Source: Orlajensenia leifsoniae
Lineage (GTDB): Bacteria > Actinomycetota > Actinomycetes > Actinomycetales > Microbacteriaceae
Direction of reading: 5' to 3'
Assembly: GCF_004570845.1 (NCBI RefSeq)
Contig: NZ_SPQZ01000001.1
Span: 124,001 to 188,000, forward strand
Length of the DNA stretch: 64,000 bases
The position numbers and the translations under genes were made by a program. The notes beneath the pieces were generated by a model that was not told where the DNA came from, did no database searches, and was given only the letters and a program-made list of their open reading frames with translations. Below, in pieces: positions 2,090 through 43,619 of this stretch. Numbering within the stretch: the first letter of the stretch is position 1; every line of letters starts with the position of its first letter.

Positions 2090-2839
2090 ATGAGCAGCGC
2101 CATCGTGCGCTGGGAGGCGTCGACACCGAGCGACGAGCGGCGACACCGCATCCTCGATGTCCTCAGTGCGCCGGAGCGCGCCCGCTGGGAGTCGGAGCCG
2201 AGCGATGAGCGGCGCGACCGATTCCTCGTCGGGCGGATGCTGCTCAGAGAGCTGAGCGCCGACCTCCTCGGCCTTCCGCTCGAGGCCATCACGGTGCAGG
2301 CGGAGTGCCCGAGCTGCGGCGGGCCGCACGGGATCCCCAGGATCAGCGCGGCCGGCGCGATGAACGAGCATGGCGCGCCCGCCCCGCACACCGGCCTCTC
2401 GCACACCACCGACCTCGTCGTCGCCGTGATCCTTCCGGCCACGGCAGGGTCCGCCGTCGGGATCGACGTGGAGGCGATCGCCGGCTCCCGCGAACGGTTG
2501 AGAGCGATCGACGAGCTCGTGCCGGTCCAGCCGGGATCCCGAGCCCGGGGTGGCAGAACGGCCAGCGCCACCCTCCGCCGTTGGACCCGCGTCGAGGCCG
2601 TGCTGAAGGCCGATGGGCGGGGCCTGCTCGCCGACCCCCGAGCCGTCACGGTGCAGCGCGCGGCCGGTCGACTCACGGCATCCGTCGCCGGAAGCGAGAC
2701 CGGCTACACCGTGCTCGACCGGAGCATCGGCTCGGGCCTCCGCAGGCGCGCCGTCGTGAGCGTCGCCATCGCCGACGCCGTCAGCGCGCCGAGGCCGCCG
2801 GCAGCGCCGGAAGCGCGGGCTCGTACAGCCACGCCGTGA
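2090..2839 (+). CDS. 4'-phosphopantetheinyl transferase (Sfp-type)
   Basis: This 249-residue protein transfers the phosphopantetheine arm of CoA to a serine of carrier domains. Visible signatures are LSH near residue 103, the magnesium-binding GIDVE at 124-128, and W165-TRVEAVLKAD with the conserved W, E169 and K173. Length is typical of Sfp-type enzymes. It faces the Pls-like synthetase locus, whose carrier domain (DLGGGSLSAAQ) needs exactly this modification, so it is the obvious activating enzyme. Its last 59 bases overlap, tail to tail, the 3' end of the M1 peptidase gene on the other strand. The segment around residues 88-100 and 147-158 is longer and looser than usual. Confidence 0.85.
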   Translation: MSSAIVRWEASTPSDERRHRILDVLSAPERARWESEPSDERRDRFLVGRMLLRELSADLLGLPLEAITVQAECPSCGGPHGIPRISAAGAMNEHGAPAPHTGLSHTTDLVVAVILPATAGSAVGIDVEAIAGSRERLRAIDELVPVQPGSRARGGRTASATLRRWTRVEAVLKADGRGLLADPRAVTVQRAAGRLTASVAGSETGYTVLDRSIGSGLRRRAVVSVAIADAVSAPRPPAAPEARARTATP

Positions 2840-4112
2840 ACAGAGCGCCCAGCGCCAGACCCGTCTGGGCCTCGGCGAGCGCCACGAACTCCGCCGTCGA
2901 CGCCGTGTCGTGGCGCTTGAGGGTGGTCCAGGCGCGCAGCACTCCGAAGAACGCCGCGTCGCCCACGACCAGGCGCAGAGCATGCAGGGTGAGCGCCCCG
3001 CGCTTGTAGACGCGGTCGTCGAACATGTGCGCCGCTCCGGGATCGCCGACGATGAGGTCGGTCGGCAGGTGCGAGAGCTCCACCCGGTACTGGCGGGCGA
3101 GGGCGTCGGCACTCACCGAGCCCGAAGCCTCCGACCAGATCCACTCGGCGTAGCAGGCGAACCCCTCGTTGAGCCAGATGTCCTTCCACGCCGCGAGCCC
3201 CACGCTGTTGCCGAACCACTGGTGGGCGAGCTCATGGGCGACCAGGCGCTCCGATCCCCCGCGCCCGTCGGCGTGGTTCGACCCGAACACCGCGAGACCC
3301 TGGGCCTCCAGCGGGATCTCCAGCACGTCGGCCGTCACCACGACGCCGTAGGACTCCATCGGGTACGGCCCGAACGCCTGCTCGAAGACCGAGACCATGC
3401 GGGGAACGTCGGCGAAGTCGGCGAGCACGGCCCGCTCGATCGCCGGCGGGAAGTAGAGCGTGCCCGCGGTGCTCCCGAGGCCCAGGTCGGTTGCCGCGTA
3501 CCGCCCGATCTGCACGGTCGCGAGGTAGGTGGCCGTCGGTTCCGGCTGCTCGTAGGTCCACTGGCCGCGTCCGGCCACCACACGGAAGTCGGTGAGCCTC
3601 CCGTTGCAGACCACCCGATAGGCGGCCTCCGTCTCGAAACGGATGCGGTAGCTCGCCTTGTCAGACGGGTGGTCATTGCACGGGAACCACGTCGGGGCAC
3701 CCGAGGGCTGCGAGGCCACGAGGAGTCCGTCTTCGAGCTCCTCCCAGCCGAGGGTCCCCCACCGGGTTCGGCGGGGCCGCGGGGCGCCGGCGTACTCCAC
3801 GGTGACGACGAACGACTCCCCATCGACGAGCGGCAGCACCGGGGTCACCCGGAGCTTGGTGGCGGTCTGCCGGAAATCCACCCGGTGTCCGCCGATGCTC
3901 ACGCGCGACGCCCGGAGCCCCACGAGGTCGAGGCTGAAGCGGCTGAGCTGCTGGGTGGCGACGGCCGAGATGGCTGCGGTCGCCGTGAGCCGGTTCGTGC
4001 TGATGCGGTACTTCAGGTCGAGGTCGTAGCCGAGCGTCCTGTATCCGCCGTTGCCGCTGGCAGGCAGGTAGGAATCACCGGCGCTCTCGGCACCGACTCC
4101 GCCGGCAGCCAT
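2781..4112 (-). CDS. M1 family zinc metallopeptidase (aminopeptidase N-like)
   Basis: The ATG at 4112 overlaps the stop of the synthetase gene by one base (TGATG), so the two are probably translated together; this start gives 443 residues. The zinc site is complete: H293-E294-LA-H297 with the third ligand E316 in NEGF, the HExxH-x18-E gluzincin pattern. The region before it (LEIPLEAQGLAVFG) occupies the place of the substrate-binding GAMEN motif. The protein is shorter than classical PepN because it lacks the large C-terminal helical domain. No signal peptide is evident. It may trim or degrade the product of the upstream synthetase; epsilon-poly-lysine producers are known to carry a zinc aminopeptidase that degrades their polymer. 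Confidence 0.85.
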   Translation of the reverse strand: MAAGGVGAESAGDSYLPASGNGGYRTLGYDLDLKYRISTNRLTATAAISAVATQQLSRFSLDLVGLRASRVSIGGHRVDFRQTATKLRVTPVLPLVDGESFVVTVEYAGAPRPRRTRWGTLGWEELEDGLLVASQPSGAPTWFPCNDHPSDKASYRIRFETEAAYRVVCNGRLTDFRVVAGRGQWTYEQPEPTATYLATVQIGRYAATDLGLGSTAGTLYFPPAIERAVLADFADVPRMVSVFEQAFGPYPMESYGVVVTADVLEIPLEAQGLAVFGSNHADGRGGSERLVAHELAHQWFGNSVGLAAWKDIWLNEGFACYAEWIWSEASGSVSADALARQYRVELSHLPTDLIVGDPGAAHMFDDRVYKRGALTLHALRLVVGDAAFFGVLRAWTTLKRHDTASTAEFVALAEAQTGLALGALFTAWLYEPALPALPAASAR

Positions 4113-7100
4113 CACCGCACCCGCACGTGATAGTCCGCAGTCGAGACGACGCGCCACGGTCCGATCGGGTTGCCGCTCCATCGGCTGCCGACGGGTACCT
4201 CCTCGCCGCGCATCACGAGCGAGGCGGGGCCGACGGTGGCGTGCGCGCCGATGCGGGCGGCGGGGAGGATGACGCTGTGCGGCCCGAGGGTCGCTCCGGC
4301 GTCGAGTGAGACGACATCCATGCTCATGATTCGATCATGGAACAGGTGGGTCTGCACGACGCAGCCGCGATTCACGGTCGATCCGTCGCCGAGGCGCACG
4401 AGGTCGGCCTCGGGCAGCCAGTAGCTGTCGCACCAGACGCCACGGCCGATCGATGCGCCGAGGGTGCGCAGCCACACGGCGAGCGCCGGCGTTCCTGCGG
4501 CCGACTGTGCGAACCAGGGTGCCGCGACCATCTCGACGAAGGTGTCCGAGACCTCCGTACGCCAGACGAAGCTCGACCAGAGCGGATGCTCCCCCACCCT
4601 GATGCGGCCGACGAACACCCACTTCGCGATGGTGGTGACGGATGCCGCGACTCCCCCGGCGACCAGCATCACGACGCCGCTCAGCAGCACGGTGACGATG
4701 GGGCCCGTCGACTCGACCAGCACGGCGAGCGCGAAGAACACCCCGAGCCCGATGCCGCAGGTGACGAAGACGGGCAGGATGCGGCAGAGCTCCCAGAGGG
4801 TGCGGGCGAGCCGCAGGCCGGGCGTCGGGTTGTAGGTGCGCGTCTCGTCGCCGGCCACGTTCGCGCGGCGCAGGCGCACGGGTGGCGAGCCCAGCCACGA
4901 CGACCCGGCCTTCGACTTCGCGGGCGCCACCGAGAGCACGGCCACGAGCGAGTCCTTCGCCACCCTGTGCCCCGGGGCCGCCATGCCGGAGTTGCCGAGG
5001 AACGCGCGCTTGCCGATGCGCGCGGGTCCGACGACCATCCAGCCGTCCTGCAGCTCATAGGACGCCACCATCGTGTCATCGGCGAGGAAGGCGTGGTCGT
5101 CGATCGTGGTCATCGACGGGATCAACAGCACGGTCGAGGCCTCGACTCCTCGGCCCACCTTGGCTCCCAGCATCCGGAGCCAGACGGGGGTGAACAGGCT
5201 GGAGTAGAGCGGGAAGAGCAGCGTGCGGGAGGCGTCGAGCAGGCGCTCGGTGCTCCAGGCCTGCCACCCGATGCGGCTGCGCACGGGGTGGCGCCCCTCG
5301 TTCAGACCGATGGCGAGCAGTCGCACCAGGACGACGACCAGCCCGGCGAAGACGACGCCGGTCACCAGGGTCGCCGGCACGAGCCAGGCTGCGGCGGCGA
5401 GCGCGGCCTCACCCAGGTCGTCGGCGCCGCGCATCCCGGCGGCGATGACGACGCCACCGGCACCGAAGGCGATGATCGGCAGGAGCGAGAGCACGAGCGA
5501 GGCCGCGGCGTAGGCCCACAGCCAGCGGGTGCGGCGTGCGGGCTCCGGGCGGTCGCGTCGCGCCGGGGCAGGTCCGACGCGCTCGGCGGGTGAGCCGGCC
5601 CAGCGCTGGCCCGACGGCACGCGCCCGAACACCGCCGATCCCGGTGCGATCTCGGCGTACTTGCCGATGCGGGCGCCCGGAAGCAGCGTGCTGCGAGCGC
5701 CGATGGTGCTGTGGGCGCCGATGCGCATGCGGCCGATGCGCACCACGTCGCCGTCGATCCAGTAGCCGGCGAGGTCGACCTCGGGTTCGACGGCGGCGCC
5801 CTCCCCGATCGTGAGCATGCCTGTGACCGGCGGCATGGTGTGCAGGTCGACGTTGGGGCCGATCTTCGCACCCAGGGCGCGGGCGTAGTAGCTGACCCAG
5901 GGCGCTCCGGCGAGGCCGACGGCGCCGATCTGGTGGGCGATCTGGTCGGCGAGCCACATGCGCATGTGCACGGAGCCGCCGCGGGCGTAGTCTCCGGGCT
6001 CGACGCCGGAGAGCAGCATCCGGGCTCCGACCACCGCGATCGCCATGCGCCCGAACGGGGTGACGAAGACGAGGATGCCGAGGACGAGCATCCACAGCGG
6101 CACGACGGGCAGGAAGGCGAAGTCGTCGCTGATCCAGGCCAGGATCTGCGCGGCCGACAGCAGGAAGATCAGCCAGCGCACCCCGCGCAGGATGAACAAC
6201 GGAATGCCGACCAGGGTCTGCAGCCACTGCGTCGAGCGCGGAGTGGGAGCCGATTCGCGGAAGGTCGCGGCTCCCTCGTCGGTCTGGGCGCGCACCCGCG
6301 TGTCGAGCTCTGCGGCCATGGCGCCGAGGCGCGGGTAGTCGTAGATGTCGGCGACCGTGAACTCCGGATCGCGCTCACGGATGCGGGTCACGAGCTGGGC
6401 CGCGGACAGCGACCCTCCGCCCAGGTCGAAGAAGCTGGCATCGGGTCCGGATGCCGGCACGCCCAGCACGGCCAGCCAGTGCTGTGCGAGCCACTGGGTC
6501 GTGGAGTCGCCGTCGGCGTCTGCCGCGCCCTCCGTGGTCAGCGGCCACGGCAGCGCCGCCTTGTCGACCTTGCCCGAGGTGCGCGTCGGCAGCTCGTCGA
6601 CGATCGCGAGGAGCGGCACGATGGCGGCGGGCAGTTCTTCGGCGAGGCGCGCACGGGCGGCACCCTGGTCGAAGGAGGTCCTGTCGGCGACGGCGATGTA
6701 GCCCACGAGCACCTGGTTGCCTGCATCGGTGCGGCGGACGGCGACGGCGGCACCGGTGACGCCCGGGAGCGCCTGCACGGCGGCCTCCACCTCGCCGAGT
6801 TCGATACGGCGGCCGCCCACCTTCACCTGATCGTCGGCTCGGCCCTGGAAGACGAGGCCGGCGCGGTCGAACTGAACGAGGTCGCCGCTGCGGTAGGCGC
6901 GGTCCCAGCCGAGGCTCGGCAGCGGAGCGTATTTCTCGGCGTCCTTCGCCGGATCGAGGTAGCGGGCGAGCCCGACTCCCCCGATGATGAGCTCGCCCAC
7001 CTCGCCGTCGGCGACGGGGTTGCCGGCGGCGTCGACCACGGCGAGCGCCCACCCGTCGAGGGGCAGGCCGATGCGCACGGGAACGGATCCGTCGAGCAGG

Positions 7101-8110
7101 GCGGCGCACGCCACCACGGTCGCCTCGGTCGGGCCGTAGGTGTTCCAGACCTCGCGCTCGGCGGAGGCGAGGCGCTCGGCGAGCTCCGGCGGGCAGGCCT
7201 CGCCGCCGAAGATGAGCAGACGCACGTTCTCGAGGGACTCGACCGGCCAGAGGGCGGCGAGGGTCGGCACCGTCGACACGACGGTGATGCCGTGCGTGAC
7301 GAGCCACGGTCCGAGGTCCATGCCCGAGCGCACGAGCGAGCGCGGTGCCGGGACGAGGCAGGCTCCGTATCGCCAGGCGAGCCACATCTCCTCGCACGAG
7401 GCGTCGAAGGCGACGGAGAGTCCGGCGAGCACCCTGTCTCCGGGCCCGAGCGGGGCGCCCTGGAGGAACAGCCTCGCCTCCGCGTCGACGAAGGCCGCCG
7501 CCGAGCGGTGGGTGACCGCCACGCCCTTCGGTGTGCCCGTCGACCCCGAGGTGAAGATGATCCACGCATCGTCGTCGACGGTCGGAGACGTGAGGATGGG
7601 CGTGGCGTGGGTGCTCGGGTGGGCGGTGGCGCCGTCGAAGAGCGGGACGGCCGGGACGGCATCCGTCGCCGCATCCGGCGCATCGGGAGTCGCATCGAGA
7701 GTCGCCTCGAGTCGCTCAGAGGCGATGAAGCCTCCGCGCCCGGAGATGACCCCCACCACCTTCGCCTCGCCGAAGACGAGGTCAGCGCGTTCCTGGGGAT
7801 CGTCGGCGTCGACGGGAACGTAGGCGGCGCCGGCGGCGATGACGCTGAGGATGGCGATGTAGAGCTCACGCGCGCCGGACTCCATGCGGATGCCGACCCT
7901 GTCGCCGCGGCGCACGCCCGCCTCGTGCAGGCGGGCGGCCGACTGCACCACGGCGGCCATGAGCTGCCTGTAGCTCAGCGCGCCGACGGCGTCCTCGATG
8001 GCCGAGGAGTCCGGATGCTCAGCCGTCGTCTCGCGCAGGACGTCGAGGAGAGTGCGCGGCGCAGGCGCGTCGGCGGCGCGATCGAGGACTCCGGCGAGGG
8101 GTGCGGTCAC
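4112..8110 (-). CDS. Pls/PosA-type non-ribosomal peptide synthetase-like protein (A-T-membrane-three tandem domains)
   Basis: This 1332-residue protein starts at a GTG with a good GGAGTGAG site. Residues 20-515 are an adenylation domain with FTSGSTGTPKG at 186-196, NTYGPTEA, YRSGDL and PTRTSGK with K514. Residues 540-605 are a carrier domain with the attachment serine in DLGGGSLSAAQ near 567. The rest alternates membrane segments (about 640-690, 865-930, 1105-1160) with three hexapeptide-like domains (about 745-835, 985-1075, 1220-1315). This is the layout of epsilon-poly-lysine synthetase, where such domains link amino acids without condensation modules. Aligning to GrsA, the pocket residues read D236 A237 E240 S279 I300 G302 T324 V332 V333 K514, close to codes for lysine. 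The substrate is inferred. No thioesterase is present. Confidence 0.9.
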   Translation of the reverse strand: MTAPLAGVLDRAADAPAPRTLLDVLRETTAEHPDSSAIEDAVGALSYRQLMAAVVQSAARLHEAGVRRGDRVGIRMESGARELYIAILSVIAAGAAYVPVDADDPQERADLVFGEAKVVGVISGRGGFIASERLEATLDATPDAPDAATDAVPAVPLFDGATAHPSTHATPILTSPTVDDDAWIIFTSGSTGTPKGVAVTHRSAAAFVDAEARLFLQGAPLGPGDRVLAGLSVAFDASCEEMWLAWRYGACLVPAPRSLVRSGMDLGPWLVTHGITVVSTVPTLAALWPVESLENVRLLIFGGEACPPELAERLASAEREVWNTYGPTEATVVACAALLDGSVPVRIGLPLDGWALAVVDAAGNPVADGEVGELIIGGVGLARYLDPAKDAEKYAPLPSLGWDRAYRSGDLVQFDRAGLVFQGRADDQVKVGGRRIELGEVEAAVQALPGVTGAAVAVRRTDAGNQVLVGYIAVADRTSFDQGAARARLAEELPAAIVPLLAIVDELPTRTSGKVDKAALPWPLTTEGAADADGDSTTQWLAQHWLAVLGVPASGPDASFFDLGGGSLSAAQLVTRIRERDPEFTVADIYDYPRLGAMAAELDTRVRAQTDEGAATFRESAPTPRSTQWLQTLVGIPLFILRGVRWLIFLLSAAQILAWISDDFAFLPVVPLWMLVLGILVFVTPFGRMAIAVVGARMLLSGVEPGDYARGGSVHMRMWLADQIAHQIGAVGLAGAPWVSYYARALGAKIGPNVDLHTMPPVTGMLTIGEGAAVEPEVDLAGYWIDGDVVRIGRMRIGAHSTIGARSTLLPGARIGKYAEIAPGSAVFGRVPSGQRWAGSPAERVGPAPARRDRPEPARRTRWLWAYAAASLVLSLLPIIAFGAGGVVIAAGMRGADDLGEAALAAAAWLVPATLVTGVVFAGLVVVLVRLLAIGLNEGRHPVRSRIGWQAWSTERLLDASRTLLFPLYSSLFTPVWLRMLGAKVGRGVEASTVLLIPSMTTIDDHAFLADDTMVASYELQDGWMVVGPARIGKRAFLGNSGMAAPGHRVAKDSLVAVLSVAPAKSKAGSSWLGSPPVRLRRANVAGDETRTYNPTPGLRLARTLWELCRILPVFVTCGIGLGVFFALAVLVESTGPIVTVLLSGVVMLVAGGVAASVTTIAKWVFVGRIRVGEHPLWSSFVWRTEVSDTFVEMVAAPWFAQSAAGTPALAVWLRTLGASIGRGVWCDSYWLPEADLVRLGDGSTVNRGCVVQTHLFHDRIMSMDVVSLDAGATLGPHSVILPAARIGAHATVGPASLVMRGEEVPVGSRWSGNPIGPWRVVSTADYHVRVR

Positions 8111-8121
8111 TGTCTCACTCC

Positions 8122-8157
8122 AACTCGCATCGAATCACGGGCGCGCGCCCGCGAGTT
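8122..8157 (-). promoter_or_regulatory. Inverted repeats in the 5' leader of the Pls-like gene
   Basis: Arms AACTCGC (8122-8128) and GCGAGTT (8151-8157) enclose the perfect palindrome CGGGCGCGCGCCCG (8138-8151). In the mRNA this would form a stable structure just upstream of the GGAGTGAG ribosome site. It could be the end of the preceding transcript, a repressor site, or a translation-control hairpin; the sequence alone does not decide. Confidence 0.35.
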
Positions 8158-8193
8158 CAGCGCGGCTACCCACGGGCGATCGTATGTCCGGCG

Positions 8194-8769
8194 TCAGTCC
8201 GCGAGGGAAGCGATGAGTTGCGCCTTGGTGAACTTCCCGTAACCGGTGAGGCCCTTCTCGCGGGCTCGTCCGCGCAGCTGGACGACGGTGAGTGCGCTGA
8301 GGTCGCCGCGCTCGGCGGCCTCGTCGGTGAGGGCGCTGGCGCGGGTCTTCGTGGGAGTGTTCACCTCGGCCGGGGCCGGCTCGGCGACGGCCGGCACGAT
8401 CACGACGTCGTCTTCGCTCGGCACCGAGACCTTCGCGGGCTTCGTCGCCCTCGTGGGGGCCGCCTTCGCCGGTGCGGGCTTCGACGGTGCATTGGTCGAC
8501 GGCGCAGCCTTCGCGGGCACAGGCTTCTTCACGGTGGCGGGCGCTGCCGTCGCGGACGCGGCCTTCTTCGCGCGGGCATCCTTCTTCGCGCGCTTCGCGG
8601 CGTCCTTCTCGATCTTCGCAGCGAGGAGCTTCAGCTCCGCCTCGACCTTGGCCGCCCGCCGCTTGGCCTTCGCACCAGCCTTCCTGGCCGTGCGCTTGGC
8701 CTCGGCGACGGCGTCCTTCGCCTTGTCCAGCGCCTTCTTCGCGGCCTTCTCGAGCTTGTTCTTCGCCAT
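8194..8769 (-). CDS. Lys/Ala-rich histone H1-like protein with C-terminal SAP/Rho-N-like domain
   Basis: This 191-residue protein has about 130 residues dominated by Lys, Ala and Pro, including AKKALDKAKDAVAEAKRT and several KPAPAKAAP-like repeats. It ends with a compact domain, LSALTVVQLRGRAREKGL...KAQLIASLAD, resembling SAP / Rho N-terminal helix-loop-helix DNA-binding domains. The composition is like bacterial histone H1 homologues and nucleoid proteins. The ATG at 8769 begins the basic region; an in-frame start at 8850 would add 27 unrelated residues and is less likely. It lies directly upstream of the synthetase gene on the same strand, but a link between the two is not evident. Likely role: nonspecific DNA or RNA binding. 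Confidence 0.7.
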   Translation of the reverse strand: MAKNKLEKAAKKALDKAKDAVAEAKRTARKAGAKAKRRAAKVEAELKLLAAKIEKDAAKRAKKDARAKKAASATAAPATVKKPVPAKAAPSTNAPSKPAPAKAAPTRATKPAKVSVPSEDDVVIVPAVAEPAPAEVNTPTKTRASALTDEAAERGDLSALTVVQLRGRAREKGLTGYGKFTKAQLIASLAD

Positions 8770-8984
8770 TCGATCAATCCCATCGTCAGTGGTGCAATTG
8801 GCGACCCAGTCTGTCACTCCGAGGTGAACGACGCCGAAGCGCGCCGACATCGGACGCCCCAGTGTGAACTCACGTTGCGCGCCTCCCCGCCTGAGGCACG
8901 CTCATCTGCCACGCTCGGTGCTGCCACACGCACCGCGTGGGGGTGCTTCACCTGCCTTGACCCTTCACCTCTGGAGACCAGCCG

Positions 8985-9452
8985 ATGACCACAGTTCCTC
9001 CCGCACCCGCGGCTCCCCTCGACGCTCCCCTCTACGGAGCCTCCTTCGGTCAGGCCATCTCGCGGTTCTGGTCGAAGTACGCCACCTTCTCGGGCCGCGC
9101 CAGCCGCAGCGAGTTCTGGTGGTCGTATCTCTTCCTCGTCATCGTCAGCACCGTGCTGTACATCCTCCTGCTCGTCGGCATCACGAGCGGTGGCGTCACG
9201 ACTGACGCCACGACCGGTGCCGCCGTGCTCAACCCCTCGCCCTTCGGGATCATCATGACGATCGTCTACGTCGTCTGGGGTCTGGCCGTCCTCGTTCCGA
9301 CGCTCGCGATCAGCTGGCGCCGCCTGCACGACACGAACCGCTCGGGCGGCTTCTGGTTCCTCGGCCTCATCCCGCTGGTCGGCGGCATCATCGTGCTGGT
9401 GTTCTTCATCCTCGAGTCCGACCCGGCCGGCGCTCGGTTCGACCGGCGCTAG
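8985..9452 (+). CDS. DUF805 family membrane protein
   Basis: This 155-residue protein has the DUF805 hallmarks SFGQAISRFWSKYATFSGRA, then SEFWW before the first membrane helix, and the WRRLHDTNRSG motif after the third helix. Four hydrophobic segments are visible (about 43-65, 82-107, 123-140). Function of the family is unknown; members are small inner-membrane proteins. The start ATG at 8985 is preceded by TGGAGA. A strong hairpin terminator follows at 9484. It is transcribed away from the histone-like gene; the 215 bp between the two holds no further gene I can see. Confidence 0.88.
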   Translation: MTTVPPAPAAPLDAPLYGASFGQAISRFWSKYATFSGRASRSEFWWSYLFLVIVSTVLYILLLVGITSGGVTTDATTGAAVLNPSPFGIIMTIVYVVWGLAVLVPTLAISWRRLHDTNRSGGFWFLGLIPLVGGIIVLVFFILESDPAGARFDRR

Positions 9453-9483
9453 TCTCGGCGGCCGCCCTGCGGCATCCGTCGTC

Positions 9484-9515
9484 CGAAGCCCCCGATCTCG
9501 TGATCGGGGGCTTCG
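9484..9515 (+). terminator. Rho-independent-type hairpin after the DUF805 gene
   Basis: A perfect 14-bp stem, CGAAGCCCCCGATC (9484-9497) with GATCGGGGGCTTCG (9502-9515), closes a 4-base TCGT loop. It is followed by GTCGTT, not a long T run, as is usual in GC-rich actinobacteria. It sits 31 bases after the stop codon. Confidence 0.75.
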
Positions 9516-9567
9516 TCGTTCCCGCGCAGTGGCCACACCGCACTCCGCGCGCGGTTAGCCTGAACGG

Positions 9568-9735
9568 GTGGAGTACGTCATCGAATTCGACACCATGCCG
9601 CAGCTGGTCGGCACCTTCCATTCGGAGGCAGAAGCTGAAGACGCCGCCGAACGGATCGCCGCGCACCGCGGCGTCTCGTCGTGGCGGGTGCGCCAGGTCT
9701 TCAACGGTGCGATGGCTCTGGCCGAACTGCGCTGA
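9568..9735 (+). CDS. Small hypothetical protein (55 aa)
   Basis: A GTG start at 9568 gives MEYVIEFDTMPQLVGTF... ending ..MALAELR. The pattern of beta-like start, acidic helix (EAEAEDAAERIAAHRG) and second beta pair (SSWRVRQVF) looks like a real folded small domain rather than a random frame. It is followed after 5 bases by another tiny gene on the same strand. No family was recognised. Confidence 0.5.
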   Translation: MEYVIEFDTMPQLVGTFHSEAEAEDAAERIAAHRGVSSWRVRQVFNGAMALAELR

Positions 9736-9740
9736 GTCGC

Positions 9741-9908
9741 ATGGAGATCGACGACGGCGACGATCCGCGGTTCGTGAGCCCCGAGCCCTGCCCGCAGTGC
9801 GGTGACGCCATGAACGGCGGCGTGATCGGCGGCGACGACATCGGCATGCTGATCTCGCTGCGCTGCCTCGGCTGCGGCTACACCGCGCTGGTCGATCCCT
9901 TCGTGTGA
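9741..9908 (+). CDS. Small zinc-ribbon protein (55 aa)
   Basis: This frame has two CxxC pairs, CPQC near residue 17 and CLGC near residue 42, separated by a hydrophobic strand (GMLISLRC). That is the pattern of a zinc ribbon. The start ATG at 9741 lies 5 bases after the stop of the preceding 55-residue frame, so the two are likely one small operon. Zinc ribbons of this size often bind nucleic acid or act as partners of larger proteins; no specific role can be given. Confidence 0.6.
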   Translation: MEIDDGDDPRFVSPEPCPQCGDAMNGGVIGGDDIGMLISLRCLGCGYTALVDPFV

Positions 9909-10007
9909 TCTCGGCTCGCTGAGGCCCGGACGACGTCTGCGGCCGACGCGCGACTCGGTCCGCTTCGGCGGCGACTTCGTCGCTGCCTCTGCGCTCGGAA
10001 GCCCGAC

Positions 10008-10045: not shown

Positions 10046-12019
10046 TCATCGCGCGTGGTGCACAGGCAGCCAGACGCGCATCGTCGACGGACCCCGTTGG
10101 GCCCAGCGGTGGTACGGCACGAGGTTCACGGTGATGGGGGCCGCGGCCGGAGCAGCGGCATCCGTCGACGAATACGGCCAGCCCCCATCGGTCGCCCCCG
10201 ACGTCTCAGCCGACGCCGAGCGGAGGACGACGGCGACGCCCGACTCGCCGTCGGCGGGCTGCGTCGCCCTGTCGACCTGCAGCCCGCTGAACGCGTCGCC
10301 GCCCGCCGGAAGGTCGGTCGACTCGAGGCAGTAGACGATCGGGCCACGCTCCACGGCGACGGTGTCGCGGATCGCGTCGATGCGCGGGTCGGGCACGGTG
10401 AAGTGCGCCGCCATCGGGAGGCTGAGCTCGAGCACATCGCCGGCGCTGAACGCCCGCCGCACCGAGACGTAGCCCGGCGCCGCCTCGAGCGACTCGACCG
10501 AGCCGTCGATGCCCCGCAGAGTCAGACCCGCGGATGCCGCCCACGCGGGCACGCGCAGCGCGATGGTGACCGGCTCGGGGACGTCGTCGACCACCGTCAC
10601 GGTGATCGTGCCGTCGTCGGGGTAGAGCGTCGCGATGTCGATGGCGATGTCGCGCCCCCCGGCGATATGCGTGCGGATCGACGCCGGCGCGTACTGGTGC
10701 AGCTGCAGGCCGTCGTCATCCGTCGTGGCGAGGTACCCGGCGAGGCTCGCGAAGGTGCGGGCGACATTCGGCGGACAGCACGAGACCTCGAACCACGGTG
10801 CACGCAGCGACGACGACGCCCGAGGCGACATGACGTCGGGCGATGCCGGCTCCCCCGGCCGCCGCTGGTGCAGCGTGTTCGCGTAGAAGAACGCCGTGCC
10901 CTCCTCCGATGGCGAGGTCGCCACGACGTTGAACAGCGTGCGCTCGATGAGGTCGGCGTAGCGGGCGTCGGCGGCTCCGGCACCCTCGACCAGCAGCAGG
11001 CGCCAGCTGAACATGATCGACGCGATGCCAGCGCAGGTCTCGGAGTACGCGCGGTCCGGCGGCAGCTCCCAGTCGTCGCCGAAGGCCTCGTCCTGGTGGT
11101 GCGATCCCTGGCCGCCGGTGACGTAGGTGCGACGCGCGATGGTCCGATCCCATTGACGCCGGAGCGCGTCGAGCAACGCGCGGTCACCGCTCTCGACGGC
11201 GACATCGGCAGCACCGGCCGCGAGGTAGTTGGCGCGCACGGCGTGCCCGGTGAGGGCGTCGGCGTCGCGCACGGGAACGTGGTCCTGGAAGTACGACCGC
11301 CCCCACTCGATGTCGGCGAGGGTGCCGTGGCCGCGCCGGTCGACGAACAGCGCCGCCTGCGCGAGGTAGCGAGGCTCCCCTGTGAGCCGGCCGAGCTCGG
11401 CCAGCCCGACCTCGACTTCAGCGTGCCCGCACACCGACTGGATGCCGCTCTCGCCGAACACCGAGCAGACCAGGTCGGCCGCGCGCGTCGCGACAGCCAG
11501 CAGACCGTCGTCGGCGCCCGGCCGGGTGCGCTCTCGCGCCACGGCGGCCTGGAAGAGATGGCCCAGGCAGTACAGCTCGTGACCCCACTCGAGGTCGGAC
11601 CAGCGTGCACCCTGACCGGGACGACCGAAGTTCGTGTTCAGGTAGCCGTCGGACTCCTGCGCCGCCGCGACACGGTCGACCACGGCGCGGAAGCGGGCTT
11701 CGAGAGCGGCATCCGTTCCCCGTCGACCGATCTCCCAGGCCACGGCCTCGAGGTACTTGTAGACCTCGGAGTCGGAGAACTCGCGGCCACGGCGGCCTGC
11801 GGGCAGGGCTCCGGATGCCGCCAGGTCGAAGTTGCCGAGCCAGCCGTCCTTCTCCAGCCAGTGCTCGATGTGGGGCAGCGTTGCCGCCCCGTTGACGCGT
11901 TGGCGTTCGGCCCAGAATCCGTCGGTGATGTGCACCTCGTCGACTCCCAGAGGGCGCAGTGCTCCTGTGGACGGGACGACGGGGGCCGCGATGATGCGTG
12001 TGGTGGTGGTCATGGTCAT
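10046..12019 (-). CDS. Glycoside hydrolase family 127 (beta-L-arabinofuranosidase type)
   Basis: This 657-residue enzyme should remove terminal beta-L-arabinofuranose from plant arabinan or extensin-type oligosaccharides. Family signatures include VHITDGFWAERQ near the N-terminus, YLNTNF, and the zinc/cysteine site: E327 and C329 in YSETCAG plus C414-C415 in SCCPPN. In the family, a cysteine of the CC pair is the nucleophile, held by zinc. The start at 12019 is chosen because its ATGA overlaps the stop of the permease gene and is preceded by AAGGG. A second ATG lies two codons later. No signal peptide is seen, so it acts on imported oligosaccharides. It is the last gene of an ABC operon (13933-15225 upstream). 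Confidence 0.92.
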   Translation of the reverse strand: MTMTTTTRIIAAPVVPSTGALRPLGVDEVHITDGFWAERQRVNGAATLPHIEHWLEKDGWLGNFDLAASGALPAGRRGREFSDSEVYKYLEAVAWEIGRRGTDAALEARFRAVVDRVAAAQESDGYLNTNFGRPGQGARWSDLEWGHELYCLGHLFQAAVARERTRPGADDGLLAVATRAADLVCSVFGESGIQSVCGHAEVEVGLAELGRLTGEPRYLAQAALFVDRRGHGTLADIEWGRSYFQDHVPVRDADALTGHAVRANYLAAGAADVAVESGDRALLDALRRQWDRTIARRTYVTGGQGSHHQDEAFGDDWELPPDRAYSETCAGIASIMFSWRLLLVEGAGAADARYADLIERTLFNVVATSPSEEGTAFFYANTLHQRRPGEPASPDVMSPRASSSLRAPWFEVSCCPPNVARTFASLAGYLATTDDDGLQLHQYAPASIRTHIAGGRDIAIDIATLYPDDGTITVTVVDDVPEPVTIALRVPAWAASAGLTLRGIDGSVESLEAAPGYVSVRRAFSAGDVLELSLPMAAHFTVPDPRIDAIRDTVAVERGPIVYCLESTDLPAGGDAFSGLQVDRATQPADGESGVAVVLRSASAETSGATDGGWPYSSTDAAAPAAAPITVNLVPYHRWAQRGPSTMRVWLPVHHAR

Positions 12020-12921
12020 CCCTTGAAGGCGCCGGACATGAATCCGCGCACGTAGTGGCGTTGCAGTATGAGGAAGAGCAGGATGCACGGCAGTGCGAGC
12101 ACGACGACGCCGGCCTCGGTGGCGCCGTAGTCGACGACGCCCTGCACCTGCCCGCGCAGGTTGGAGATGGCCAACGGCAGGGTCATGCGAGCCGAGTCGT
12201 TGATGAGGATGAGCGGGGCCATGAAGTCGTTCCAGGCCGCGAGGAAGGCGAACAGGCCCACGGTGATGAGACCGGGCTTCACGGCCGGAACGAGCACGCG
12301 CCAGAGCACGGTCCAGGAGGTGCATCCGTCGACCATCGCCGCCTCATCGAGCTCGCGCGGGATGGACTCGAACGAGATGCGCATCATGAAGGTGGAGAAC
12401 GGCAGCTGGAACATGGTGAGCACCAGCGCCACTCCCACCAGCGAGTTGGAGAGCCCCACCATGTTCAGCAGCACGTAGAGCGGGATGAGGAGAGTGGCGT
12501 AGGGCACCATGAGGATCGCGATGGTCGCGAGGAAGAGCGTGTTCTTGCCCCGGAACTCGAAGCGCGCGAACGCGTACCCGCCGAGCAGCGAGATGACCAG
12601 CGTGAGCACGACCGTGAGCAGCGAGACGAACACCGAGTTGAGGATGTACTGCCCGATGCCGTCCTGGTAGTTGGCGAGGGTGATGTAGTTGCCGAGGCCC
12701 CAGCCGTCGGTCTGGTTGGTGCCGGCCAGCGGGGCCACGGAGGACACCGCCGTCCAGACCAGCGGGTAGAGGAAGATGATGGCGATCGCGCCGGTGAAGA
12801 CCCAGAATGGCATCTGCAGCGCGATGCCGGCGACAGAGTAGCGACGGCGGTGCGGCCGGGGAGCGACGGAGGCGATCGACGACGTCTCGGTGCGGGGCGG
12901 TCGGGCGAGGGTGTTGGTCAT
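12016..12921 (-). CDS. Sugar ABC transporter permease (MalG type)
   Basis: This 301-residue inner-membrane protein has six hydrophobic segments and the cytoplasmic EAA loop EAAMVDGCTSWTVLWRVLVP, which docks the ATPase. A Pro- and Arg-rich N-terminal tail precedes the first helix. It begins 3 bases after the upstream permease stop and overlaps the GH127 start by 4 bases, so the genes are translationally coupled. No ATPase gene is in the operon; as in many actinobacteria, a shared MsiK-type ATPase elsewhere probably drives it. Confidence 0.92.
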   Translation of the reverse strand: MTNTLARPPRTETSSIASVAPRPHRRRYSVAGIALQMPFWVFTGAIAIIFLYPLVWTAVSSVAPLAGTNQTDGWGLGNYITLANYQDGIGQYILNSVFVSLLTVVLTLVISLLGGYAFARFEFRGKNTLFLATIAILMVPYATLLIPLYVLLNMVGLSNSLVGVALVLTMFQLPFSTFMMRISFESIPRELDEAAMVDGCTSWTVLWRVLVPAVKPGLITVGLFAFLAAWNDFMAPLILINDSARMTLPLAISNLRGQVQGVVDYGATEAGVVVLALPCILLFLILQRHYVRGFMSGAFKG

Positions 12922-12924
12922 GGC

Positions 12925-13848
12925 TCAGTCCTCCACTTTCCGGCTGAAGCCGCGGATCTGCACGATGTTGATCACGACGAGGGCCGCGAGCACGATGACC
13001 GACAGGGCGCCGGCCACTCCCAGGTCGTTCTGGCCCTGGAAGGCCACGCTGTAGATCAGCTGCACGACGGTGATCGTGCTGTTGTCCGGCCCGCCCTTGG
13101 TGAGGATGTAGAACTGCTCGAAGGCGAGCAGCGAACCGGTGACGCAGAGCACCGTCGTCAGGGCGAGCGTGGGCTTCAGCAGCGGGATCGTCACGTGACG
13201 GAAGGTCTGCCAGCGCGAGGAGCCGTCGATGCGGGCCGCCTCGTACACCTCGTCGGGAATGCCCTGCAGTCCGACGAGCATGAGCAGCATGTAGAAGCCC
13301 GCGTAGCGCCAGACGATGAGGAAGAGCGTCGACCAGAGGGCGGCATCCGGGGTTCCGAGGAAGGTGAATCCCCAGGCCTGCGTGAGCTCGGCGAACGGCC
13401 CGGCGATGGGCGAGTAGAGCACGTAGAAGAGGAGCGAGGCGGATGCGAGTCCGAGGGCGCTCGGGATGAGGAACGACGCCCGCAGGAAGCCCTTCCACCG
13501 GCTCGATTCCTGCACCAGCAGGGCGAGGCCGAGGCCGAGACCGATCAGCAGGATGGTCGCGAGCACCGTGTACTTCAGGGTGAACAGCACCGAGTCGAGG
13601 AAGAACCTGTTGCTGATGGCGCTCGCGTAGTTCTCGGGGAAGTTCCAGCCCTGGTCGCCGCCGAGCAGCGGCCAGTCGGAAGCCGACATCTTGAAGACCA
13701 GCAGCAGCGGCAGGATGAACAGGAAGAGCACGAACAGGGCCGTCGGCAGGGCGTAGAGCCATCCGATCCCTGCCCGGCCGGACGTGCGCCGGCGCCGCCG
13801 GGGCGGGGGTGTCATCTCGGCCGGGATGAGAGGAGCTGTGACGCTCAT
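12925..13848 (-). CDS. Sugar ABC transporter permease (MalF type)
   Basis: This 307-residue protein has six membrane segments and the EAA loop EAARIDGSSRWQTFRHVTIP. The ATG at 13848 has an AAAGG site at good spacing; an in-frame start at 13875 would add nine residues with no better site. It pairs with the MalG-type permease that follows. Together with the lipoprotein encoded upstream they form an importer for arabinose-containing oligosaccharides, judging by the GH127 gene in the same operon. Confidence 0.92.
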   Translation of the reverse strand: MSVTAPLIPAEMTPPPRRRRRTSGRAGIGWLYALPTALFVLFLFILPLLLVFKMSASDWPLLGGDQGWNFPENYASAISNRFFLDSVLFTLKYTVLATILLIGLGLGLALLVQESSRWKGFLRASFLIPSALGLASASLLFYVLYSPIAGPFAELTQAWGFTFLGTPDAALWSTLFLIVWRYAGFYMLLMLVGLQGIPDEVYEAARIDGSSRWQTFRHVTIPLLKPTLALTTVLCVTGSLLAFEQFYILTKGGPDNSTITVVQLIYSVAFQGQNDLGVAGALSVIVLAALVVINIVQIRGFSRKVED

Positions 13849-13888
13849 GGTGGTGCCTTTCGATGCTGTCGTCACGGGCGGGTGGGGG

Positions 13889-13921
13889 CTGCGCCGGCCG
13901 ACGCTCGGTCAGCCGGCGCAG
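13889..13921 (-). other. Intercistronic hairpin between binding-protein and permease genes
   Basis: Arms CTGCGCCGGC (13889-13898) and GCCGGCGCAG (13912-13921) form a perfect 10-bp outer stem. It lies 12 bases after the binding-protein stop and before the first permease. Such a hairpin can slow decay of, or partly terminate, the transcript so that binding protein exceeds permease. Confidence 0.6.
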
Positions 13922-13932
13922 TCATCCGTCTG

Positions 13933-15225
13933 CTACTGCGAGAGCACGTCGGTGATCGCGTCGTTGTCCGCGTCGACCGTGTCGGTGCCCTCGAGCACGG
14001 CGTTCCGCACGAGGGTCAGCCAGGGGCTGGTGGGCGAGTTGAACGCCTCCTGGAAGTTGAGCGACACCGGGGTGTCACCCTCGCCGGCGACCTCGTTGAT
14101 GGTGATGAGGCGCGGGTCCTTCTCGGAGTACTCGTTGGTGGCGAGGTCGGAGCGCGAGACCACGTCGTTGTCCTTCGCGAGAACGCCGACCTGGGCCTCC
14201 TCCGACATCATCCAGTTGAGGAAGTTCCACGCCTGGGCGGCCTTCTTGGAGTCCTTCGAGACACCGATGCCGTCACCGCCGACGAAGGTGGATCCGCCGC
14301 CCTTCGGGCTCGGGATGCCGGAGACGCCGACGTCGAAGGGAGTCGACGACAGCAGCGTGGCCGGGTAGGGCATGAGTCCGACCTTGCCCTCGGTGAAGCC
14401 GGCGGTCCAGGTGGGTCCTGCCTCGTCCTTCGACGACGGCAGTACGGCGCCGGACTTCCACAGGTCGGCCCAGGTGCTGTAGATCTCCTTCGCGGTGTCG
14501 CTCGCGAGCAGCGACTCGGTGCCCTCCTCGTTCATGACCTGCTCGTCGGCGGCCCACACGCTCGGGAACCACGTGAAGACGAGGCATCCGCCGCAGTTCA
14601 GGCCTGTCGCCGTGCCGTAGGTGTCGGGCTTGTTCAGGCCTTGGATGGCCTTGGCCCACTCGGCGAACTCGGCGAGATCGGCCGGACCCGCCTCGGCGTC
14701 GAGGCCGGCCTCGGTGGCGAGGGCCTTGTTCCAGAACAGCATCGACAGGTCGAGCACGAACGGAAGCACGTGCTCCTTGCCGTCTGCGGTTCCGGCCGCG
14801 AGGTGACCCTTGTTGATGGAGTCCTTGAAGTCGAGGCCGTCGATGTTGGCGGTGAGGTCCTGGAACAGGCCCTGCTTCACCCAGTTGGGAACGTAGACGA
14901 TGTCAGCGGCGAACAGGTCGGGCAGGCTGTTGGAGCCGGCAGCCGCGCCCACCTTGGCGACGTAGTCGTCGTTGGGCACGACGGTGAGCTTCACCTGGTT
15001 CTCGTGGCTGGCGTTGTAGGCGTCGACGAGCAGGTTGGCCTGCTTCTCGAGAGGGGCGCGGGTCCACAGGGTGAGCGATGTGCCGTCGTCGACGCCCTCG
15101 GGTCCGGCGCTCGCGGCGGAGGTGCCCGGATCGGAGCTGGAGCAGGCGGCGAGGCCGGCCAGCAGGACGCCGGCGGTGACCAGGGCACCGACCCTGCGCA
15201 TCCGTCGGTTCATGGTGCGTGTCAT
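13933..15225 (-). CDS. Sugar ABC transporter substrate-binding lipoprotein
   Basis: This 430-residue protein begins with a basic stretch and hydrophobic segment ending in the lipobox LAAC (residues 25-28), so it is exported and anchored by lipid at the outer face of the membrane. The rest has the family 1 extracellular-binding fold seen in MalE-like proteins (SLTLWTRAP.., FLNWMMSEEAQVG near the C-terminus). The start at 15225 has a GAAGGAG site. It is the first gene of the GH127 operon and is divergent from a LacI regulator, so its ligand is most likely an L-arabinose oligosaccharide. Confidence 0.92.
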   Translation of the reverse strand: MTRTMNRRMRRVGALVTAGVLLAGLAACSSSDPGTSAASAGPEGVDDGTSLTLWTRAPLEKQANLLVDAYNASHENQVKLTVVPNDDYVAKVGAAAGSNSLPDLFAADIVYVPNWVKQGLFQDLTANIDGLDFKDSINKGHLAAGTADGKEHVLPFVLDLSMLFWNKALATEAGLDAEAGPADLAEFAEWAKAIQGLNKPDTYGTATGLNCGGCLVFTWFPSVWAADEQVMNEEGTESLLASDTAKEIYSTWADLWKSGAVLPSSKDEAGPTWTAGFTEGKVGLMPYPATLLSSTPFDVGVSGIPSPKGGGSTFVGGDGIGVSKDSKKAAQAWNFLNWMMSEEAQVGVLAKDNDVVSRSDLATNEYSEKDPRLITINEVAGEGDTPVSLNFQEAFNSPTSPWLTLVRNAVLEGTDTVDADNDAITDVLSQ

Positions 15226-41894: not shown

Positions 41895-43619
41895 CTACGC
41901 GCTGCGACCGGCGATCAGCGACTCCCGGACCTTCTTGCGCAGCACTTTGCCGATGAGCGAGGTCGGCAGTGCGTCGAGCTGAACCACCCTCTTCGGCACC
42001 TTGTACGCGGTCAGGCGGGTGCGGCAGTAGTCGCGAAGCGCGCCGCCGTCGAAGCTGGTGCCGGCGCGCATGACCACAGCAGCCGTCACGTCCTCTCCGC
42101 CGGAGGCTCGCGGAAGGCCGACCACGGCTGCAGACATGACGTCGGGGTGGCTCAGCAGCACCTCCTCCACCTCCGACGGGCTCACGTTGAAGCCGCCGGT
42201 GATGATGATCTCCTTCACCCGGTCGATGACCGTCACGAAGCCGTCCGCCGACACCGTCACGATGTCGCCGGTGCGCAGCCATCCGCCCTCGAGCAGAGCC
42301 GCTCTCGTGTCCTCGGGCCGCCGCCAGTAGCCCTGGAAGACCTGCGGCCCGCGCAGCAGAAGCTCTCCGGGCTCCCCCGCCGCGCGATCCTCGGTCGGGG
42401 CATCGGGGTCGACCACGCGGATGTCGGTGCTCGGGAATGGCACCCCGACCGTGCCAGGCCGACGCGATGGGCCGATCGGATTGCCGACGGCCACCGGCGA
42501 CGTCTCCGTCATGCCGTAGCCCTCGACGAGCAGACCCCCGGTCGCCTCCTCCCACCGTGTGACGGTGGAGACGGGCAGGCTCATCGCGCCCGATATGGCG
42601 AACCGGATGCTCGACAGGTCGACGCCCTTCCGGCTCGTCGCCCGGGCCAGCGCGTCGTAGATCGGCGGCACCGCGGGCAGGAAGGTCGGCGGTGACTTCT
42701 TCATGGCGCTGAGAACCAGGTCGAGGTCGAACTTGGGGAACAGCACCAGCTTCGCGCCGATGCTCATGGCGAACGTCAGGCAGAGCGTCATGCCGTAGGC
42801 GTGGAAGAGAGGCAGGACGCCGTAGAAGGTCTCATCGCCCTCGGCGAGACCGGGAACCCAGGCTCGGCCCTGGGCTGCGTTCGCCCGAAGGTTGCGATGC
42901 GTGAGGATGGCACCCTTCGGGGTGCCGGTCGTGCCGCTTGTGTACTGCAGCAGGGCCGTGTCGTCGATGGTCGGGCGGATGACGCGCCTCGACAGCCTGT
43001 GACCGCCGACGAGGCGATCCCAGGTGAACACCCGGCGTGCCTTCGGAGTGCTGGTCATCGCAGCGCGCGACTCCCGCGCCTTCCTGATCGGCAGGGAGAG
43101 GGCGAGGCGCTTTCCGAAGGGAAGGGCATCCGTCATGTCGACGGACACGATGTGCGCGAGCTTCACGTCGCTCGGCATGTCGGTGACGAGGTCGTAGACC
43201 TTGTCCCAGACGATCGCGACGCTCGCCCCGTGGTCCTCGAACTGGTGTCTCAGCTCGCGGGCCGTGTAGAGCGGGTTGTGCTCGATGACGATGGCTCCGA
43301 GGCGCAGCGCCGCGTAGAACGCGACGACGTGCTGCGGGCAGTTCGGCAGCACGAGGGCCACCCGATCGCCGGGGCCGACGCCGAGCCTGCGGAGCCCCTC
43401 GGCCGCGCGCGAGACCTGCTCCCCCAGCTCGCGGTACGTCGTCTGGGCGCCGAAGAACTCGAGTGCGACCTTCGATCCGAACCTCGCGACGGAGGCATCG
43501 AGCATGTCGACCAGCGTCTCGGTCGGCTCGTCGATGTCGGCCGGCACGCCTTCGGCGTAGGAGGCCAGCCAGGGCCTGTCACGGAACAGCTGGGACGGAT
43601 CGTTCGAGTCCTGAGGCAC
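41895..43619 (-). CDS. Long-chain fatty-acid-CoA ligase (FadD-like)
   Basis: This 574-residue enzyme activates fatty acids with ATP and CoA. Key motifs are LLQYTSGTTGTPKGAILTHR (the AMP-binding P-loop), GYGMTETSPV, WLRTGDI and the C-terminal VIDRVKEIIITGGFNV and GKVLRKKVRE with the catalytic Lys. Length and motifs fit long- or medium-chain ligases. It starts with GTG at 43619; the GAGGG upstream is very close, so the start is probable but not certain. No membrane segment is obvious. Confidence 0.92.
   Translation of the reverse strand: MPQDSNDPSQLFRDRPWLASYAEGVPADIDEPTETLVDMLDASVARFGSKVALEFFGAQTTYRELGEQVSRAAEGLRRLGVGPGDRVALVLPNCPQHVVAFYAALRLGAIVIEHNPLYTARELRHQFEDHGASVAIVWDKVYDLVTDMPSDVKLAHIVSVDMTDALPFGKRLALSLPIRKARESRAAMTSTPKARRVFTWDRLVGGHRLSRRVIRPTIDDTALLQYTSGTTGTPKGAILTHRNLRANAAQGRAWVPGLAEGDETFYGVLPLFHAYGMTLCLTFAMSIGAKLVLFPKFDLDLVLSAMKKSPPTFLPAVPPIYDALARATSRKGVDLSSIRFAISGAMSLPVSTVTRWEEATGGLLVEGYGMTETSPVAVGNPIGPSRRPGTVGVPFPSTDIRVVDPDAPTEDRAAGEPGELLLRGPQVFQGYWRRPEDTRAALLEGGWLRTGDIVTVSADGFVTVIDRVKEIIITGGFNVSPSEVEEVLLSHPDVMSAAVVGLPRASGGEDVTAAVVMRAGTSFDGGALRDYCRTRLTAYKVPKRVVQLDALPTSLIGKVLRKKVRESLIAGRSA

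Follow-up and report, generated by a model that had tools for sequence, protein, structure and literature searches.

A locus in the genome of Orlajensenia leifsoniae (assembly GCF_004570845.1, contig NZ_SPQZ01000001.1, positions 124,001–188,000 of the forward strand; the window, 64,000 nt in full) is, with a probability of about 0.93, an epsilon-poly-L-lysine (epsilon-PL) operon of the pls-pldII type, faced by a gene for a probably activating 4'-phosphopantetheinyl transferase (PPTase); its chemistry is assigned by analogy with Streptomyces and Corynebacterium (Table 1). Gene content, domain order, pocket identity, gene overlap, phylogeny, and co-occurrence of the PPTase with pls were all seen in the analysis. 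The initial annotation had described the domain order of an epsilon-poly-lysine synthetase, a zinc peptidase coupled to it, and a PPTase facing it. All three descriptions were borne out, the first by TIGR02353, TIGR01733, and PF00550 in order, the second by PF01433, a HELAH motif, and a TGATG junction, and the third by a PF01648 match on the opposite strand.

Table 1. Features of the putative epsilon-PL locus, with positions in the window.
Feature	Position	Strand	Basis
pls, predicted epsilon-poly-L-lysine synthetase, 1332 aa, A-T-terminal membrane domain	4112..8110	(-)	TIGR02353, TIGR01733, PF00550, tree
Adenylation domain, aa 8-525, pocket DAESIGTVVK	6536..8089	(-)	7wew_A 621.5 bits, code identity
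Thiolation (carrier) domain, aa 539-601	6308..6496	(-)	PF00550 51.6 bits
Putative polymerising terminal domain, aa 630-1316: hydrophobic helices and three beta-helix regions	4163..6223	(-)	TIGR02353, model
Candidate catalytic motif H1255-x3-D1259, third beta-helix region	4334..4348	(-)	conservation
pldII-type M1 zinc peptidase (by analogy), 443 aa from the ATG in TGATG	2781..4112	(-)	PF01433/PF17900, 6a8z_A, junction
Sfp-type 4'-phosphopantetheinyl transferase (PPTase), convergent	2090..2839	(+)	PF01648, co-occurrence with pls

The synthetase gene starts with GTG, and its product matched the Pls/PosA family model TIGR02353 with 722.3 bits (cut-off 423.1); the E-values (6e-217 for the terminal domain) rule out chance. 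The adenylation (A) domain scored 339.6 bits with TIGR01733 (cut-off 317.4) and shared 316 of 478 aligned residues (66% identity) with the A domain whose structure was solved from epsilon-poly-L-lysine synthase (7wew). In carrier domains, a serine is the attachment point of phosphopantetheine; hence Ser567 of the GGGS motif, invariant in 42 of 42 rows, is the expected site in Pls. With Pfam at E ≤ 0.001, only AMP-binding, PP-binding, and hexapeptide models were matched, giving an A-T-terminal membrane architecture without C or TE domains. No full-length synthetase structure was present among the PDB entries listed (20 of 327, 10 of 1,141, and 60 of 169 matches).

Lysine is the monomer predicted from the substrate pocket. 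Residues D236, A237, E240, S279, I300, G302, T324, V332, V333, and K514, extracted from the aligned A domain, gave exactly the code that the initial annotation had read by eye. There it was likened to the lysine code of bacitracin synthetase (DAESIGSVCK); it is in fact identical to the Pls code, and the code comparison that had been suggested returned the same ten residues for 7wew and annotated Streptomyces pls. The extraction was validated on PosA, for which it returned the published DMEHNGTVSK. DAESIGTVVK was read in 115 of 115 rows (the window protein, 7wew_A, and 113 locus rows, L001 being the window itself) and in two of four further Streptomycetaceae loci, while L139 and L140 gave no readable pocket; in 80 of the loci this identity is partly selected, because one of the six search patterns spans pocket residue E240. 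The code predicts activation of lysine, not polymer formation.

The family also contains same-fold synthetases of cationic homopolymers that use ornithine, diaminobutyrate (DAB), or diaminopropionate (DAP), and PosA prefers ornithine even though its own code came closest to a lysine code (PMC10522769). That the window enzyme is one of these is very improbable. Position 2 of its pocket is Ala, as in Lys enzymes, instead of Met (PosA) or Phe (PDAP and PDAB enzymes), and all ten residues match Pls. Its identity was 52.2% to the annotated Streptomyces Pls (1288 aligned residues) and 58.5% to that of Kitasatospora, vs. 31.4% to PosA and 34.0% to a DAB-type enzyme. The same extraction on L136, where the neighbours are annotated as diaminobutyrate transaminase and aspartate kinase, gave DFECLSAVTK (Phe-2); neither a transaminase nor an aspartate kinase was found among the nine window ORFs scanned, direct neighbours included. 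Ornithine, DAB, and DAP were rejected as monomers on pocket, identity, and tree. Of the earlier "poly-lysine or relative", lysine stands as the predicted monomer, and the second half was narrowed away by code and tree.

Members of the Pls family were detected in 116 of 299 Microbacteriaceae genomes (41 of 85 genera). For locus comparisons, 80 loci were the best 80 of 593 found with six peptide patterns of the window protein, and the other 32 were taken on terminal-domain score alone; some loci belong to both sets (the tree shows L061 and L130 as identical, and L049 comes from G072). One further comparison used 35 of the 80 pattern-found loci and the window, with L056 left out. The tree comprised 42 rows (30 of the 113 loci, the window, and 11 others, cut to the last 1400–1450 residues). 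In this phylogeny, of the kind suggested earlier, the window protein clustered with Streptomyces pls and with Kitasatospora in a Pls group of 38 rows (SH-aLRT 100), apart from PosA and the DAB-type enzymes; the tree was made by a quick method with no bootstrap, and PosA and L136 have long branches in it. The rows for Streptomyces and Kitasatospora come from annotated records, not from enzymes confirmed by experiment.

An AlphaFold model of residues 615–1332 (pLDDT 82.9, pTM 0.86) had three rounds of helices and beta-helix strands. By Pfam, a single stretch of hexapeptide repeats exceeded the threshold (PF00132, residues 796–827). Foldseek gave low whole-chain TM-scores, and VIA-align then served as a second look: the second and third beta-helix regions matched hexapeptide acyltransferases (best Z 12.6 and 8.5; PglD, Z 12.6 with 102 residues aligned at 3.4 Å), and the first region gave no match by itself. 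Every part of the A-T-membrane-three-hexapeptide protein of 1332 residues described previously is there, the three regions resting on the model and the fold match covering the second and third. Across 42 rows, PosA and three DFEC-type enzymes among them, H1255 was the only His of the terminal domain that never varied; we infer from this conservation that H1255 and D1259 probably sit in its active centre.

The peptidase matched PF01433 with 85.1 bits and also PF17900, contains a NEGFA motif besides HELAH, scored 210.7 bits against 6a8z_A, and was 43.8% identical to the peptidase downstream of annotated Streptomyces pls. In all 113 loci (the window and 112 others), pls is followed by an M1 peptidase gene; none was found in the flank of the Pls-like gene in two Streptomycetaceae stretches (L139 and L140). 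The start of the longest ORF (4181) was set aside for the ATG at 4112, which overlaps the pls stop by one base. The latter is likelier because of this overlap and the recurrence of 1- or 4-base overlaps in 82 of 113 loci, a count that took the start nearest the junction and so favours short gaps. In S. albulus, the pldII and pls genes share 4 nt (PMC4361855), and PldII degrades epsilon-PL (PMC8117764; PMC9223678); by analogy, the window peptidase is of the pldII type and would degrade epsilon-PL. A lysine-rich ORF (8194–8850) and an SGNH protein (155–1504) were left out of the operon because, among the 80 pattern-found stretches informative for these flanks (the other 33 end short of them), the former matched just once and weakly (L051, E 3e-9), and the latter not at all at E ≤ 1e-8.

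The PPTase (PF01648, 34.0 bits, cut-off 25) has 249 residues, about twice the size of AcpS, and its gene overlaps the tail of the peptidase gene by 59 bases, as calculated from the coordinates. D126, W165, E169, and K173 were invariant in 20 aligned rows; we take these D and W..E..K residues to be the motifs of Sfp-type PPTases. The genome holds two PF01648 genes, the second being a 120-aa frame of AcpS size. Across the 299 Microbacteriaceae genomes, the PPTase was detected in 114 of 116 with Pls and 16 of 183 without it (Fisher p 7e-62, treating genomes as independent, which related genomes are not), and it lay convergent beside pls in 93 of the 116. Since it occurs in those 16 genomes and is missing in two with Pls, the two genes are not strictly tied. 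We infer that the PPTase probably acts on Pls, i.e., switches the synthetase on. A general NRPS activator that adjoins pls by chance is a rather unlikely alternative, although 9 of the 16 genomes with PPTase and without Pls hold another A domain at E ≤ 1e-70 (7 over the family cut-off; 20 of the 167 genomes with neither served for comparison). Likewise, no PPTase was found in the fetched stretches of 34 of 34 Mycobacteriales loci, a few of which end soon after the peptidase, nor in those of Streptomyces (L134) and Kitasatospora (L135), and 13 of the 116 genomes with Pls had no match within 8 kb of pls. Adjacency and co-occurrence across Microbacteriaceae argue for activation of Pls instead. 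Two features of this genome point the same way: no A domain except that of Pls exceeds the TIGR01733 cut-off, and the carrier-domain model matches just twice, in Pls and in an ACP-sized frame.

In the proposed working of the locus, the PPTase would load phosphopantetheine onto Ser567, and the A domain would adenylate L-lysine and attach it there by a thioester bond. The isopeptide bond would then be made by the membrane terminal domain, which forms a three-fold beta-helix platform, is related to hexapeptide acyltransferases, and probably has H1255/D1259 in its active centre; the acceptor would be either a free lysine or the growing chain, which is held non-covalently. An iterative mechanism with free lysine as primer is described in a review (PMC9205021). 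The finished chain would be released outside the cell, and the translationally coupled M1 peptidase would break the polymer down, either in its turnover or to protect the producing cell. For the chemistry, the excretion, and the activity of the peptidase, this scheme relies on the Streptomyces and Corynebacterium work.

By simple measures, the N-terminus of the window peptidase is without the twin-arginine pair and following hydrophobic stretch seen in two Streptomyces peptidases (L134 and L138); among the 113 peptidases from the window and related loci, one has it. An earlier hydropathy test (19-residue windows >1.6; 6 of 113 positive) was dropped because the Streptomyces N-termini reach only 1.35 and 1.16 and would be missed. 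Showing no export signal by these measures, unlike the surface PldII described for S. albulus, the window peptidase may differ in role. The product could then be internal or surface-bound and turned over by a cytosolic peptidase, as a lysine store or with an acid or surface-charge function, rather than a secreted antibiotic. PMC9606270 describes these polymers as being of unclear biological significance, and native C. variabile gave no detectable epsilon-PL in culture though its gene worked in S. coelicolor (PMC8117764), so the window locus may be silent too. We nevertheless consider an internal polymer unlikely: the polymer is excreted when made by Streptomyces Pls or, in S. coelicolor, by the C. 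variabile enzyme, and the peptidases of Kitasatospora and Embleya are likewise without the stretch, which is thus often missing and whose loss does not have to signal a different function. It is more speculative still that Microbacteriaceae and Micrococcaceae carry a self-contained cassette of synthetase, coupled cytosolic peptidase, and own PPTase, with a polymer that is produced and recycled at the cell membrane and serves a conserved physiological role, vs. the secreted antimicrobial of Streptomyces. Release of epsilon-PL outside the cell remains our preferred reading.

Epsilon-poly-lysine is a natural, commercial preservative, and these data support the idea that it can be made by a large proportion of the coryneform bacteria that grow easily. 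The PPTase is a likely helper, and heterologous expression of pls may need a matched PPTase. The purpose of the polymer and the isopeptide-forming residues can be approached directly through the pls-PPTase co-occurrence, the lack of a clear export signal in the peptidase, and the one invariant His.

Among known systems, the poly-DAB-type synthetases (Streptomyces sp. NBC_01527, L136; L127 and L129) belong to the same family as the window Pls. Their identity to it was 27.7–34.0%, their codes were DFECLSAVTK or DFECLSVVTK, the annotated transaminase gene of L136 adjoins its synthetase gene, and, unlike the window, none of the three stretches had an M1 peptidase match. L127 and L129 are second synthetases of genomes G072 and G134. 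PosA, the delta-poly-L-ornithine synthetase of Acinetobacter baumannii, shares family, domain order, and H1255, D1259, D1011, and E1234 with the window Pls and differs in code and in forming a single-gene operon (PMC10522769). The Streptomyces pls-pldII system (S. albulus type) has the same architecture, pocket code, and overlapping M1 peptidase gene; the two Streptomyces peptidases named above carry an RR-containing N-terminus, which the window peptidase lacks, and the PPTase that adjoins the window pls was not found in the Streptomyces stretch examined. The available parts of PMC8949500 and PMC4361855 report no pls-linked PPTase. The nearest precedent in a coryneform actinobacterium is the pls and peptidase operon of C. 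variabile, with the same predicted substrate; it is in a different genus, and the available part of PMC8117764 mentions no PPTase neighbour. Since that operon has been verified to make epsilon-PL and Pls homologues in Microbacterium, Arthrobacter, and Brevibacterium are listed in the same source (Jiang et al., 2021; PMC8117764), the window locus is a fresh instance of an operon type already known in coryneform actinobacteria, whose link to an activating PPTase may be new.

The epsilon-poly-L-lysine synthetase (Pls)-like locus in the window consists of a synthetase gene, an M1 peptidase gene and a convergent phosphopantetheinyl transferase (PPTase) gene. The initial annotation had read it as Pls type, and this was correct according to the family score, the Pls-identical pocket and the tree.

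Features of the locus, of other genes in the window and of the L127 locus of a relative
Feature	Position	Strand	Details
Synthetase ORF	8110-4112	-	1332 residues
A domain of synthetase	aa 46-456		TIGR01733 (NCBIfam)
PP-binding domain of synthetase	aa 539-601		Pfam
Pls/PosA terminal domain	aa 630-1316		TIGR02353 'Pls/PosA family non-ribosomal peptide synthetase' (NCBIfam), 722.3 bits, cut-off 423.1
Hexapeptide stretch of synthetase	aa 796-827		Pfam; one such stretch
M1 peptidase	4112-2781	-	PF01433, PF17900; same strand as synthetase, downstream
PPTase	2090-2839	+	PF01648; opposed to synthetase and peptidase
Lysine-/alanine-rich protein	8194-8850	-	immediately upstream of pls, same strand
GH127 beta-L-arabinofuranosidase and transporter parts	10046-15225	-	
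AMP-binding enzyme	41895-43619	-	574 aa
Alpha-L-rhamnosidase	44767-47409		
L127 locus	4157-5617, 5680-9921		PPTase 2315-3016

In a phmmer search of the PDB, the A domain scored best against 7wew_A, the corresponding domain of epsilon-poly-L-lysine synthase (621.5 bits; 316 identities over 478 aligned residues). The ten pocket positions (D236, A237, E240, S279, I300, G302, T324, V332, V333, and K514) form the code DAESIGTVVK, exactly as previously read by eye. Every one of the 115 rows compared shares it: those of the window protein and 7wew_A plus 113 from loci, among which L001 is the window itself; the named-locus rows were partly preselected by a search pattern spanning E240. As controls, the same extraction yielded DAESIGTVVK from a Streptomyces gene annotated as pls, DFECLSAVTK from a Streptomyces synthetase with annotated diaminobutyrate transaminase and aspartate kinase neighbours, and DMEHNGTVSK from PosA, the code printed for it in PMC10522769. 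That source links the residue at pocket position 2 to chain length: Ala goes with Lys, Met with Orn, and Phe with DAP/DAB.

In the phylogenetic comparison also proposed in the initial annotation, the window protein grouped with Streptomyces and Kitasatospora Pls in a 38-row group (SH-aLRT 100); PosA and the DFEC-type enzymes, divergent family members of predicted DAB type (L136, L127, L129), fell outside. The 42-row tree was built by a quick method with a midpoint root, PosA and L136 being long branches. Inside Microbacteriaceae, the window protein clustered with L008, from the same genus, and with L039, from Agromyces tardus. Of 299 Microbacteriaceae genomes, 116, spread over 41 of 85 genera, had a match above cut-off to the terminal-domain family, including 3/3 of the window's genus, its own genome counted. 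Genomes G072 and G134 each carried a second, divergent Pls/PosA-family synthetase with the pocket DFECLSVVTK (L127, L129); G187 likewise had two synthetase matches. In L127, the second synthetase was preceded by an ORF resembling diaminobutyrate transaminase by eye, with a PPTase close by; this is probably a poly-diaminobutyrate-type locus in a genome also carrying an epsilon-PL locus.

The AlphaFold model of residues 615–1332 (36-row alignment) had a mean pLDDT of 82.9 and a pTM of 0.86. By VIA-align, model residues 350–466 matched PglD (Z 12.6, 3.4 Å, 102 aligned) and residues 553–709 matched hexapeptide acetyltransferases, e.g., 3nz2_C (Z 8.5, 3.3 Å, 138 aligned). A three-fold beta-helix platform was proposed earlier for PosA (PMC10522769). 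Few charged or polar residues of the terminal domain were kept across the 42 rows, which include PosA and three DFEC-type enzymes: R979, D1011, R1035, N1040, E1186, R1215, E1234, Q1253, H1255, and D1259. Since a histidine base is common among hexapeptide acyltransferases and H1255 is the sole histidine kept, H1255 and D1259 are candidate catalytic residues. Mutations in the three tandem domains were reportedly studied by Kito et al. in 2013, and that work may bear on this pair.

PF01648 matched twice in the window genome (3.78 Mb, 16 contigs), in the locus PPTase and in an AcpS-sized frame of 120 aa; PF00550 also matched twice, in the carrier domain of Pls and in an ACP-sized frame of 127 aa. 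The only A domain above the TIGR01733 cut-off was that of Pls; nine more matches were below. The PPTase profile (20 rows) matched 130 of 299 Microbacteriaceae genomes at E≤1e-8: 114/116 Pls-positive vs. 16/183 Pls-negative ones. The two Pls-positive genomes without a match were G218 (82% complete) and G247. Another A domain (E≤1e-70) was found in 9 of the 16 PPTase-only genomes vs. none of the 20 compared, out of 167, with neither gene. The PPTase lay within 8 kb of pls, on either side, in 103/116 Pls-positive genomes, and was convergent and within 6 kb downstream in 93/116 (median distance to the terminal-domain match, 1440 bases). Eight genomes (G006, G036, G088, G110, G150, G245, G259, G297) instead have it upstream and co-oriented with pls, the PPTase match starting ~4.5–4.8 kb ahead of the distal end of the terminal-domain match; in L130 (G006), the PPTase frame immediately precedes pls. 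Among the named loci (best 80 of 593), with families assigned from record titles, 40 stretches contained the PPTase: Microbacteriaceae 27/31, Micrococcaceae 11/12, Intrasporangiaceae 1/1, a Propionibacteriaceae MAG 1/1, Kribbella 0/1, and Mycobacteriales 0/34, some stretches being short. PosA was treated with Sfp prior to assay. Within a limited literature search, no published report of a pls-linked PPTase was found.

At the TGATG junction, the A of the peptidase ATG (4112) is also that of the synthetase stop codon. An M1 peptidase gene followed pls in all 113 loci (the window and 112 others, L001 omitted as a duplicate). Measured to the nearest peptidase start, the two genes overlap by 1 base in 36 loci and by 4 bases in 46; they lie ≤25 bases apart in 20, 26–100 in 6, and >100 in 5. 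This arrangement is that of the pls-pldII operon of S. albulus, where the overlap is 4 nt (PMC4361855) and the PldII-type peptidase degrades epsilon-PL (PMC8117764; PMC9223678). Unlike the Streptomyces peptidases of L134 and L138, the window copy has no N-terminal arginine pair followed by a hydrophobic stretch; the Kitasatospora (L135) and Embleya (L141) copies likewise lack it. Such a pair and stretch form the layout of a twin-arginine signal. A rule catching both Streptomyces copies, based on simple measures rather than a signal-peptide predictor, selected 1/113 peptidases of the window and relatives (L037). Two other Streptomycetaceae stretches (L139 and L140) showed no M1 gene in their flanks.

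Elsewhere in the window, the lysine-/alanine-rich protein, histone H1-like by eye, matched Rho_N weakly at its C-terminus (21.4 bits, under the cut-off of 24.9) and had one weak match across the 80 named stretches (best 80 of 593). The GH127 enzyme adjoining parts of a binding-protein-dependent transporter and the alpha-L-rhamnosidase make encoded plant-polysaccharide use seem likely. The AMP-binding enzyme scored below the NRPS A-domain cut-off.

In a review (PMC9205021), the Pls reaction passes through adenylation and thiolation to an iterative condensation that takes place on free lysine and the free, non-covalently held chain. Jiang et al. (PMC8117764) verified the C. variabile enzyme once moved to S. 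coelicolor, report no product seen in native C. variabile and C. glutamicum, and list Pls homologues in Microbacterium, Arthrobacter, and others. With that enzyme verified and those homologues listed, the window locus therefore belongs to an already known kind of pls system, to which the PPTase link, the peptidase N-terminus, and the invariant histidine are additions.
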